IMG/VR virus record: IMGVR_UViG_3300043772_002678
Location: 1 to 27,438 of that record
Direction: 5' to 3' (one strand)
Source: a virus
DNA length: 27,438 nt
In this document: one piece after another, positions 3,165 to 6,850 of the stretch
How the letters are laid out: each line of letters begins with the position of its first letter
How positions within the stretch are numbered: position 1 is the stretch's first letter
Translations under genes and position numbers: made by a program
The notes under the pieces: model-generated
The model's database searches: none
Seen by the model: only the letters and a program-made list of their open reading frames with translations
What the model was told of the DNA's origin: nothing

Positions 3165-4355
3165 TTAGGGCTCGTTGTTCGGCAAAGGAACACTCGACCA
3201 GTCGGCCAGATCCTCGAGAATGAAGGTTTTGAACCGTGCCCCGGGAATGTAGACACTTTTTCCCGTGACGGTCGTCGCGGCTTTTCGGGACAATGTGCAG
3301 GACGTGGAACTCGCGACGGCCGTGATGGTAGCCTCTAGTTTTCGGCCGAATGGACCTGCGCCCGGAATAATCACGAGGCATCCTTTGTGGGTCGCCTCTA
3401 CCAGTCCGCTGCTGACCGTCAGCGTAGTGGCTCCCGCTGTAATCGCACCGCCGGACAAGGGCGTCGTGGTGAGCGAAATGACGCGCGTGGCCTGGCCGTT
3501 GTAGTCCAGCCAGATTGCCTCCGCGGTGTCCTGCTGCTCCGTCGTCTGAATGCGGCGTTTGATCACCTGTTTTTTTGCGGCGGTCGCCTCGGCATCGTAG
3601 GCCGTTTTGGTCACATCGACCCACGGATCGTTGTCGGGCTGCGGGATGGTCGATGTCGAGCGGGCCTGATAAACCAGCTCGTGGAACCCCTTGTTCGGTA
3701 GAATGATGAAATACCCGCTCGGGTTGACCTCCACGTCGTAGGTGATTGGCCAGTATTCGACGCCGTCTTTACTTTTGGTTGGCTCGTCCGGCATTTGAAC
3801 ATTGCTGAGATAGCAGGTTCCCGCGGGATATGTTTTGCCGTGTATTGTGACGGCCGAATCGTTAATCGTTTCCGCGAGGTCGAACAGGTAGTTCGGAATG
3901 GCGGCATAGTTGGCCGTCACGTTGATCTGCCGCAGTCGCTGTTTTTTCGTCAGTCCCTCGAATAAGTCGCCAGCGTCGTTTACCAGAGGATTGCCGAAAG
4001 CGTCGTAGTAGGCTGGAACCTCTTGCGACGCAGATCGCATTCCGCCTTTCACGAGTCGATTGAGCGGATCCTCGTTGTCTTGTTTGCTGATCGGCTTCGT
4101 CGAAAAAGTCGCCGTGAGTGTGAGCAGATCGTCGAAGTCCGAGGCCGCCTTGAGGGAGCGGCCCGTGCAAAATGCGTTGGCGTTTTCGGGGTGAGCTGAT
4201 CGCCGATCTGGAACGCTCGCGTGCGCCAAAATCGTGCTGATCGTTGTCGTGTAGTCGTCGACAAATATCTCGTACTCGATGACGGCCGTCTCGTTGCCGT
4301 CAGCGTCTTCCTGCCAGTCGTAGCGGCGAAGTTCTTTCACCCATGAAACAGCCAT
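3165..4355 (-). CDS. tail protein downstream of the tape measure (distal tail or baseplate candidate)
   Basis: This 396-residue protein begins MAVSWVKELRRYDWQ and starts within a TGATG overlap with the tape-measure stop. The N-terminal ~250 residues are mixed alpha/beta (IEYEIFVDDYTTTIS, NYLFDLAETINDSA, VEYWPITYDVEVNPSG). Residues ~300-385 form a Gly/Thr-rich beta region with an ITAGATTLTVSSG segment that resembles a small beta-barrel/Ig-like module of tail proteins. In siphophages the gene after the tape measure usually encodes the distal tail or baseplate hub protein, and the gene order is the main support for that call here. I see no peptidase or glycosidase motif. Confidence 0.6.
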   Translation of the reverse strand: MAVSWVKELRRYDWQEDADGNETAVIEYEIFVDDYTTTISTILAHASVPDRRSAHPENANAFCTGRSLKAASDFDDLLTLTATFSTKPISKQDNEDPLNRLVKGGMRSASQEVPAYYDAFGNPLVNDAGDLFEGLTKKQRLRQINVTANYAAIPNYLFDLAETINDSAVTIHGKTYPAGTCYLSNVQMPDEPTKSKDGVEYWPITYDVEVNPSGYFIILPNKGFHELVYQARSTSTIPQPDNDPWVDVTKTAYDAEATAAKKQVIKRRIQTTEQQDTAEAIWLDYNGQATRVISLTTTPLSGGAITAGATTLTVSSGLVEATHKGCLVIIPGAGPFGRKLEATITAVASSTSCTLSRKAATTVTGKSVYIPGARFKTFILEDLADWSSVPLPNNEP

Positions 4356-6085
4356 CAGAGATTGACCACCTGGGGAGCAAACCCCGTTGAAGTATTACGA
4401 GCGATCTCCAGCAGTGCGTTGAGATGACGACGTGACACCTCGCCCGTTTTGTTTATGAGGCTCGTGAGTTGTGCTGCCCCGCTAACTGTCCGCACGTCCT
4501 GCGGCTGGGCTCCGGTCGTTTTCGTTGCGGCGGCGACGTTGACGGAAACGCCCTCCAGTTGTGTCGTGAGAGCGGCCTGAGCGTTTGTCACTGCCTCCGG
4601 AACCGTCGGGTCGAGTGCTGCGGCCTCGCCTATGGACATGGCCAGCGCGGCCCGTGCTGCTGCCAAATCGTTGTTGACTCGTCCGACGTTGCTCGCAAAC
4701 TGTGAATCTCTTTCCTTTTGCCGACTCGCTGCGGCGGTGTCAGTCGTCGCCAATTGCTGCTGGAGCATCGCGTCGAGTTCCGCGTTTACGTCGTCGACGT
4801 TGATCGTGGCATCGAAAAAAGCCATCGCACCGACAATTCCCTTTGACAGCGTGTTTTGGAGTTTCGCCCATTTCTTCGCGACATAGGTCGCGGCGGAGTC
4901 GAACACCTCGAGGAAAGCGTGTTTCCAAACGAGCCATTCTTGATTCAATGCGTCGACACCAGTCACCCAGGCTAATCTGAGACCGAGCCAAAGCACATTG
5001 GCGGCCTTCTCATACTCGCCCGCATTGAGGAACTTGAGAATTGCCCCGCCGACTTCCTGAATCGGTGCTAGTAGTCCGGGAAAAGCGTCCTTGAGCATGT
5101 TCAGAGCGTTCGTCGCTCCGCCAAAATATTGAATGATCGCAACGCCCAGACCGGCGACCAGTCCAATCATAATCCCTAGTGGGCTCATGATTGCACCGAG
5201 AACAAACGCGATACCAGTGAGCAGTCCGGCGAATGTCGTGAGTGCGGCTCCGGCGACGACCAGACCGACGCCCAGCATTGCGACGCCTTTGATCAGTCCG
5301 CCGTTTTCTCGGATCCATTGGACCACCTGCCCGATGATAGGAACAACTTGGCCCATCAGATCCGTGATCGCTGGAGCCAGAGCGGCCCCGATCTGCATCG
5401 AGACGGCTCCAAATGTGTTTTTGAGTTTGTCCCACATGTCATCAAACGCGGCGGCGGACGCGGCTTGTTCACCGGAAAGAGTCAAACCGAGCGCGTCTGC
5501 CTCGTCCATCAATTCGCGAATCCCTTCAGCTCCGCCGTTCATCAGAGGCAGCATGTCCGCCCCTGACTTGCCGAGGATGTCCATCGCATACGCCGCACGT
5601 TTCCCCGGGTCCGTCACTTTCGCCAGTGCATCCGCAACGGCGAGCATCTGTTTTTCGGGTGTCATCTTGGCGAGTTCTGCCGACTTCAATCCAAGAATGC
5701 CCAGCGATTTCGCCGCGGTCGCGCTGCCTGAGTTTGCGTCTGTTATCGTGACGCCCAGTTTGCGCATGCTCTTTTCGACCGTCCCGATGTCGGTCCCGGA
5801 CTGGCCGGCGGCATAGGCGAGCTGGCTGAGTGCTTCGGCACTGGCTCCAGTTCGTTGACTCATGTCGTCGATTGCGGCCCCGGCTCCGGCAAACTGAAAC
5901 ACGGCGGCGGTCAGCGGTGCCAAGATCGTCGCACCAGCTCCGGCCATTCCGGCCCCCATCTTGCCGATGTTCGCGGCGGTGGATTCGAGCATCGCTTTCG
6001 TGCTTTCAATGCCACGACGGATTGCGGAGTCCTCCCAGTAGACTCTGACAAATGCTTTCGCCGCTTCGATTCCACCGCTCGACAT
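4355..6085 (-). CDS. tail tape measure protein
   Basis: The 576-residue protein sets tail length and is threaded inside the tail tube. Evidence: an Ala/Gly-rich helical N-terminus (IGKMGAGMAGAGATILAPL); the family-typical pattern around SQRTGASAEALSQLAYAAGQ and TVEKSMRKLG; then a central hydrophobic block at about residues 265-320 (GVGLVVAGAALTTFAGLL) of the kind that inserts in the host membrane during DNA entry; then long helical sequence to the end. The length is short for the family, implying a tail of roughly 85 nm if the usual 0.15 nm per residue holds. It lies directly after the two tail-assembly chaperone frames, as in lambda G/T-H. One base separates its start from the chaperone stop. 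Confidence 0.93.
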   Translation of the reverse strand: MSSGGIEAAKAFVRVYWEDSAIRRGIESTKAMLESTAANIGKMGAGMAGAGATILAPLTAAVFQFAGAGAAIDDMSQRTGASAEALSQLAYAAGQSGTDIGTVEKSMRKLGVTITDANSGSATAAKSLGILGLKSAELAKMTPEKQMLAVADALAKVTDPGKRAAYAMDILGKSGADMLPLMNGGAEGIRELMDEADALGLTLSGEQAASAAAFDDMWDKLKNTFGAVSMQIGAALAPAITDLMGQVVPIIGQVVQWIRENGGLIKGVAMLGVGLVVAGAALTTFAGLLTGIAFVLGAIMSPLGIMIGLVAGLGVAIIQYFGGATNALNMLKDAFPGLLAPIQEVGGAILKFLNAGEYEKAANVLWLGLRLAWVTGVDALNQEWLVWKHAFLEVFDSAATYVAKKWAKLQNTLSKGIVGAMAFFDATINVDDVNAELDAMLQQQLATTDTAAASRQKERDSQFASNVGRVNNDLAAARAALAMSIGEAAALDPTVPEAVTNAQAALTTQLEGVSVNVAAATKTTGAQPQDVRTVSGAAQLTSLINKTGEVSRRHLNALLEIARNTSTGFAPQVVNL

Positions 6086-6086
6086 T

Positions 6087-6850
6087 TTACATCCCCATGA
6101 TCACGGACCAGTCATAACCCGGAGCAAACTCCCACTCGCCGGAGCCCATCGCGGCGACTGCTGCGATGACCTGTGTTCCACTTGCCCCGCGTCGTTTTGT
6201 TTGCTGGTGGCACGGGTGTGCATCAACCCAGCTCCAGACCTTGTGAGTGTCCTTGGTTCGATTCACGTTGTAGACGGCAGCGACCACATGGCCGGCATTC
6301 ATAAACCCGTGGTACGTGATGCCCTCCCACCGCCAAATCAGTTCTCTCAGGGACAGCGTTTCTGCCCCGTTGCCGACGACGCCGCAGATCCAGTTCCACC
6401 ACTTCCACGGGTCAGCGATTTCGAGAGCGCCGAAGAAAAGTCTGTTTCCTCTATCTGTTTCATGACCGCCGTCAGTGCTTTTCCGCCCACCAGTTCCGCG
6501 GCCTCCGTCATCTTGCGGATGAGCGTCGTCAGGATTTGACGGGGGCGGACTGGGAAAAAATCGGCGATCGCTTCCAACAATGCGACCGAGGCCGTCTGGA
6601 AAGCGTCCCCGTCCCAAAGGCTGAAATACTTGTCCTGCCCCTTTTCGTCGATGCCCTCACAACACGCGCACGCGGCCATGAGCGTCTCGGGTTGCTCCGC
6701 GAGTCGCTTGATGATCGTTTGAATGTGTCCGGTGTCAACCAAACACGTCAGGAGGTTGATATCGCATTCACGGAGCAGACGTTTAGCCGTCGCTCCGTCG
6801 ATTTTAAGCGGGTGCGGATGCCCCGTGTTGTCTGTCCAAGTCGCTTGCAT
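6087..6850 (-). CDS. tail assembly chaperone GT-type fusion, made by -1 frameshift
   Basis: A second frame, open from beyond 6617 to its stop at 6087, overlaps the first chaperone gene by 270 bases or more. It encodes a convincing domain (ADPWKWWNWICGVVG, then LSLRELIWRWEGI) but has no plausible start codon near where that domain begins. The heptamer T TTT TTC at 6560-6554 sits at codons 98-99 of the upstream gene, in the correct phase for both Phe tRNAs to slip back one base. The predicted fusion has 254 residues: 99 from the first frame and 155 from the -1 frame. In lambda the analogous gpGT recruits tail tube protein onto the tape measure. Caveat: the original frame still looks coding down to about 6440, so the stretch just after the slip would be a Pro/Gly-rich linker, or slippage occurs further downstream. 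Confidence 0.6.
6347..6850 (-). CDS. tail assembly chaperone, G-like
   Basis: The 167-residue protein (MQATWTDNTGHPHPL) lies between the tail tube gene and the tape measure, the standard place of the phage tail-assembly chaperone. It is mostly helical (TAKRLLRECD, GHIQTIIKRL, ASVALLEAIADFF). An N-terminal segment on the pattern W-D-x-G-x-x-x-x-L-x-I-x-x-x-T is followed by helices. Coding character fades after DFSSA near residue 140, and the last 25 residues (Ser/Gly/Ala-rich) look like read-through in a frame better used by the overlapping gene. The slippery heptamer at 6560-6554 lies inside this gene. It is expected to be made in excess over the frameshifted fusion. Confidence 0.75.
   Translation of the reverse strand: MQATWTDNTGHPHPLKIDGATAKRLLRECDINLLTCLVDTGHIQTIIKRLAEQPETLMAACACCEGIDEKGQDKYFSLWDGDAFQTASVALLEAIADFFPVRPRQILTTLIRKMTEAAELVGGKALTAVMKQIEETDFSSALSKSLTRGSGGTGSAASSATGQKRCP
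6527..6560 (-). promoter_or_regulatory. candidate -1 ribosomal frameshift signal
   Basis: On the - strand, T TTT TTC (6560-6554) matches the X XXY YYZ rule. Both zero-frame codons are Phe, and after a -1 slip both are still Phe. Thirteen bases downstream is a small hairpin, CGTCA-AATCC-TGACG (6541-6527), only five base pairs, which could act as a weak stimulator. The position between tail tube and tape-measure genes is where such signals occur in many tailed phages. Confidence 0.6.

Follow-up and report, generated by a model that had tools for sequence, protein, structure and literature searches.

The question raised by this locus is whether two overlapping reading frames ahead of a tail tape measure gene are expressed as two separate proteins or are joined by a ribosomal frameshift and, if so, at which codon the reading frame changes. 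The window, i.e. the whole stretch of DNA analysed, is a virus record 27,438 bases long, and the chaperone frames lie on its minus strand. An earlier note had described the overlap, with a slippery T TTT TTC in phase between the two frames at 6560-6554, and the coordinates agree (Table 1). Frame 1 (G) has an SD-like TGAGGG at about 6862-6857, ahead of its ATG. Frame 2 is offset by -1 relative to frame 1, is open to 6087 and, as the note also held, lacks a good start, there being no ATG or GTG in the window ahead of its conserved domain; the earliest start codon listed, a TTG at 6617, precedes the slip. On the evidence set out below, frame 1 very probably encodes a G-type tail chaperone from which a -1 ribosomal slip at T TTT TTC yields a G-T fusion. 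The length of 254 residues that the note had given for this fusion was recomputed as 99 shared residues plus 155.

Table 1. Positions of the chaperone frames, the predicted frameshift elements and the following gene in the window.
Feature	Position	Strand	Basis
G-like tail assembly chaperone frame	6347..6850	minus	ATG, 167 aa; family alignments and AF2 model
Upstream SD-like stimulator position	6571..6577	minus	Weak TTGGAAG in the window, spaced by 10 nt; most relatives have GGAGG
Slip heptamer T TTT TTC	6554..6560	minus	Shared by 99/112 distinct genes at the homologous codon
Downstream RNA structure, including small hairpin 6541-6527	6486..6553	minus	Shuffles, z -1.94 (68 nt) and -2.53 (45 nt)
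Gly/Pro-rich linker of the predicted fusion, -1 frame (in frame 1, C-terminal helices of G)	6414..6553	minus	No -1 stops; low pLDDT
T-like domain, -1 frame, up to TAA (6089-6087)	6087..6413	minus	Family alignment
Tail length tape measure protein	4355..6085	minus	PHROG tape measure families, e.g. phrog_8462, E 8.2e-38

The pair stands immediately before the tape measure gene, the ATG of which (6085) is one base past the stop codon of T. Across the family an ORF of 200+ codons, counted by length and not identified by family as a tape measure gene, lies within 900 nt downstream in 84 of 107 genes. In five relatives (L069, L082, L083, L091 and L095) a small lipoprotein- or membrane-like frame seems, by eye, to follow the T stop, and the tape measure start seemingly does not come directly after it; HK97 has a moron gene at the corresponding place. 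Upstream of the G gene, ORF 7575-7111, where the tail tube gene was sought, gave no significant family match. Between this ORF and the G gene there is a short ORF of about 48 aa (7040-6894, minus strand), and a similar-looking short ORF occupies the same place in L010.

Conservation of the slip heptamer

Homologues were collected from IMG/VR contigs by peptide-pattern scans and range in identity between 98% and about 24%. Of 538 homologous stretches in IMG/VR the best 80 were taken in, and 130 loci were reduced to 112 distinct genes by dropping those identical over nucleotides 61-420, with repeats of the same contigs not entered. One 102-kb contig (IMGVR_UViG_3300048599_000897) carries two copies of the G gene (L120 and L122), about 57 kb apart. 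The slip peptide served as a pattern in some of the scans, which biases the amino acids at the site and leaves the codons unbiased. It was absent from the patterns of the scan that gave the 538 stretches and from those of another that gave 29 loci, 21 of which have a perfect heptamer at the site or one codon before it (19 T TTT TTC and two A AAT TTY) and eight of which have none.

In the window the heptamer is read in frame 1 as GAT TTT TTC CCA (codons 97-100), and 99 of the 112 distinct genes have T TTT TTC at the equivalent codon. A different perfect X XXY YYZ lies no more than two codons from the site in five others, i.e. A AAT TTC and A AAT TTT (one gene each, located one codon earlier) and C CCT TTG in place of T TTT TTC, two codons later (three genes), giving 104/112 with any perfect heptamer there; two of the 99 genes have T TTT TTC and C CCT TTG together. 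When representatives of <72% identity are considered, 36/43 carry T TTT TTC. The residue ahead of Phe-Phe is variable (Asp, Gly, Asn or Ala) with the T run retained, and GAT TTT TTC is used by 30 of the 31 Asp-Phe-Phe representatives, whilst pooled codon usage predicts 0.043 per gene, or about 1.3 in total. Likewise, the octapeptide EAIADFFP is spelled with GAT TTT TTC in all 13 family contigs that have it, compared with 1/16 open frames outside the family, this control consisting of L037 and 15 pattern matches in bacterial genomes, none of which is a relative by tblastn. The heptamer by itself is not rare in the window, where the 15 ORFs inspected (5,279 codons) hold 18 in-frame XXXYYYZ sites, three of them TTTTTTC; its conservation is far beyond chance.

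A further in-frame T TTT TTC, at 1366-1360 on the minus strand, falls 15 codons short of where ORF 2964-1321 ends. From it the -1 frame stays open and leads into ORF 1321-542, an ORF that nevertheless starts with an ATG of its own. L003 and L004 both extend this far and have no heptamer at the place; a blastn comparison of the stretch with L003 gave no match, and this occurrence is probably due to chance.

Eight of the 112 genes (L082, L087, L088 and L091-L095, L093 being cut) have no perfect heptamer near the site and still have an open -1 frame. Since most frameshift overlaps in the data of the PRFect paper are described there as being without an XXXYYYZ motif (PMC10885494), these eight exceptions are, on that description, not alarming.

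Location of the change in frame

Upstream of the site, 10,080 codons of the -1 frame contain 223 stops, and the 6,570 codons downstream contain none; in the +1 frame, stops occur both before and after the site. None of the 112 genes has a -1 stop in the 60 codons past the heptamer, as far as each sequence reaches. For the 52 codons downstream in 111 genes, about 115 stops would be expected from synonymous permutation, with a minimum of 94 in 200 runs, where synonymous codons were shuffled within each gene and, as in the other permutation tests, kinship among genes was ignored. In seven genes (L007, L015, L071, L085, L119, L134 and L142) a -1 stop directly abuts the heptamer on its upstream side, and entry into the -1 frame is therefore not upstream there. 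Because the -1 stops end at the heptamer, abut it in these genes and are absent downstream, the shift is placed at 6560-6554 and not near 6440.

The latter position had been left as an alternative by the earlier note, which saw that frame 1 looks coding to ~6440 and that a slip at 6560 would put a Pro/Gly-rich stretch into the fusion, to be explained either as a linker or by a true frameshift further downstream. Frame 1 is indeed protein-conserved to about 6440, and a short motif near there is identical in the window, L006 and L007; nevertheless, a shift at this point (GAC TTT TCT TCG) has a negligible probability in our judgement, given the open -1 frame past the heptamer where so many stops were expected, and given that none of the 18 in-frame XXXYYYZ sites counted in the 15 ORFs lies near 6440. 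The linker is thus the part of the note's alternative that holds, and the downstream shift the part that does not. Synonymous-site conservation in the relatives, a comparison that the note had proposed, is raised at codons -5, -1, 0 and +1 and again from about +51, at the beginning of the T domain, and is ordinary from +2 to about +50 past the site, where frame 1 dominates, so that the linker seems to be free in sequence except for being without stops.

Frame 2 might also be translated from a start of its own, giving two separate proteins, and the TTG at 6617 could open it in the window. We regard this as highly improbable in view of the -1 stop directly before the heptamer in the seven relatives and of the 11 loci listed for starts, where post-slip -1 start codons lie within or adjoining the T domain and only L009 has a -1 start (GTG) before the slip, L016, which is cut, having none. 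Relatives with two clearly separate genes, which the earlier note had named as evidence against a frameshift, were absent from the 107 with a complete -1 frame, in all of which this frame is open from the slip. It runs for 120-169 codons from the slip (median 150), and 52-86 zero-frame codons (median 67) remain after the site in the family. The conserved heptamer together with the open -1 boundary supports the -1 frameshift at 6560 that the note had proposed for these tail chaperone genes.

Elements flanking the slip site

The family has an SD-like GGAGG, mostly from the codons CTG GAG GAA, and scanning by 8-mers places its peak about 7-10 nt upstream of the heptamer. The best SD duplex has a family mean of -8.4 kcal/mol, compared with -6.4 (sd 0.26) after synonymous permutation, and reaches -6 kcal/mol or lower in 95/112 genes against a permuted mean of 58; the duplex of the window itself is weak (-3.3 kcal/mol). 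The spacing of 10 nt in the window falls inside the range of 9-14 nt that PMC5009743 gives for -1 shifts.

Downstream, the small hairpin that the earlier note had pointed out was found as CGTCA-AATCC-TGACG, 12 nt past the heptamer, and is modest; only 4/200 dinucleotide shuffles of the 45-nt stretch containing it fold as well or better. The case for a stem-loop is stronger from the relatives than from this hairpin. For the 42 nt at offsets 10-52, counted from the first T of the site (n = 111), the mean MFE is -17.1 kcal/mol, as opposed to -12.9 (sd 0.24) in synonymous permutations, and the best stem begins 12-16 nt from that T in 53% of genes versus 25% when permuted, an onset about 6-7 nt downstream of the heptamer. 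The seven uncut genes that lack a perfect heptamer fold at -17 to -23 kcal/mol over 45 nt past the site, a hint of compensation. With the stem held in a single register, pairing is seen in 58% of cells, compared with 28-36% when the register is slid; since some slid controls had at least as many compensatory double changes in the stem, covariation is not claimed. Folding of the L073 and L169 stretches with poorly chosen ends gave no signal, and an Rfam search found nothing.

From the heptamers and these flanking elements we infer that the slippage is ribosomal. The fusion could also arise by transcriptional slippage, with RNA polymerase adding a base in the T6 run and the altered mRNAs being translated normally, and both the six-T run and the fact that one inserted base gives the same -1 frame would suit this route. 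It is nonetheless very unlikely: the non-homopolymer heptamers that are the only perfect sites in 5/112 relatives are compatible with slippage of tandem tRNAs, ribosomal stimulators (the SD-like element and the stem-loop) lie at set distances, and the T6 run is shorter than the runs usually cited for transcriptional slippage, which are longer than six bases. Runs of nine are mentioned in a passage of PMC5009743.

Predicted products

According to the preferred reading, ribosomal slippage, two tRNA-Phe would slip back by one base at the heptamer in a minority of ribosomes, which would then read the -1 frame on to 6087. The resulting GT would have residues 1-99 in common with G; G would retain its two C-terminal helices (101-149), whilst GT would carry a flexible linker and the T-like domain instead. 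By analogy with lambda, G and GT may coat the tape measure protein and T may recruit the tail tube subunit.

Models are consistent with this division. The AlphaFold2 model of G (mean pLDDT 80.8) has a core of residues about 1-98, followed by helices at 101-135 and 138-149 and a disordered tail, and slip codons 98-99 coincide with the end of the core; the model of the -1 product has a low-confidence stretch first and then helices. When the G model was compared with BFVD, predicted tail assembly chaperones ranked first and third (E 0.022 and 0.088; best probability 0.99). Against the PDB, Foldseek and VIA returned only low scores for G, with no match at E<=0.001, and VIA likewise for the T model, for which BFVD gave nothing convincing; a PDB sequence search had no match for G or T. 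G or T may have a known fold despite the low structure scores.

T domains of 33/45 family members match Pfam PF06223 (Phage_tail_T) at E<=1, with a best E of 7.4e-6; when five relatives were scored one at a time, none reached the curated cut-off (L074, 24.2 of 25.9 bits), and the T domain of the window had no match to PF06223 or another family. No convincing Pfam or PHROG family match was obtained for the G protein, hhalign against the single lambda G and T sequences gave nothing, and tblastn of P0001, P0002 and the G of L073 against the annotated phage collection gave no match.

Evolution of the signal

In a tree of the G protein (110 rows; the cut L016 and L093 left out), the three genes with C CCT TTG only require at least three changes on well-supported branches, a count that, with many forks unresolved and some long branches, is a reading of this tree. 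One of these genes, L156, is sister to L135, which carries both sites, and another, L171, is in a small group with L172, which also carries both. L080, L089, L076, L091, L094, L095, L082, L087 and L088 form a clade-like group (fork support 88/85) with the sites AAATTTT, TTTTTTC, AAATTTC, TTTTACC, TTTTTGC and TTTCTGC. There is, we judge, an even chance that the signal is evolving within the family: T TTT TTC would have been lost and C CCT TTG kept, two codons downstream, at least three times, with the two-site relatives as intermediates; in one group the heptamer would have decayed with the -1 frame and strong stems kept, as if stem and SD together took over; and the C-terminal helices would be swapped for T. 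If this is true, G and GT differ by more than one added domain.

Comparison with known systems and implications

Lambda-type G/GT pairs are made as two products in a fixed ratio and are needed for tail assembly. As in lambda, the predicted -1 shift of the window family leads from a chaperone into a T-like domain ahead of the tape measure gene, and the family T domains have weak similarity to Phage_tail_T. Lambda slips at GGGAAAG, at codon 133 of 140, with five zero-frame codons left, far fewer than in the family; lambda GT extends G, whereas the GT of the window family would replace the C-terminal helices of G. The published description of SPP1 17.5/17.5* is of a putative -1 frameshift at a UUUUUUC heptamer inside the chaperone gene, giving proteins of 173 aa (17.5) and 297 aa (17.5*) with the first 112 in common, and the next gene listed is tape measure gene 18 (PMC6316719). 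On that description SPP1 shares with the window family the heptamer, the -1 shift and the long zero-frame continuation, and the long overlap is thus not new. HK97 gp13/gp14 resembles the window family in having a -1 frameshift, annotated in HK97 between the tube and tape measure genes, and in its record no perfect XXXYYYZ leads into gp14, as in the eight family genes without a perfect heptamer. In mechanism only, the E. coli dnaX cassette is similar, with an SD-like element upstream, a slippery heptamer and a stem-loop downstream; gene and purpose are different, and the dnaX shift leads to an early stop whilst that of the window would give a longer product.

In mechanism and role the predicted system matches lambda G/GT, and in layout SPP1 17.5/17.5*; this kind of system is already known. 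What would be new is the occurrence of a chaperone frameshift, as predicted from compared sequences, in a large phage group that has no described relatives, and no description of such a chaperone family in uncultivated phages was recognised in the open-licence PMC literature. A G/GT pair is now predicted for a large set of uncultivated phages (the 538 IMG/VR stretches), in which annotating the two frames separately would cause the T domain to be missed or given a wrong start. The naturally occurring range of slip sites in the family (T6C, AAATTTY, CCCTTTG, double and imperfect), with SD and stem-loop, would also be useful in testing the requirements of the bacterial -1 signal.
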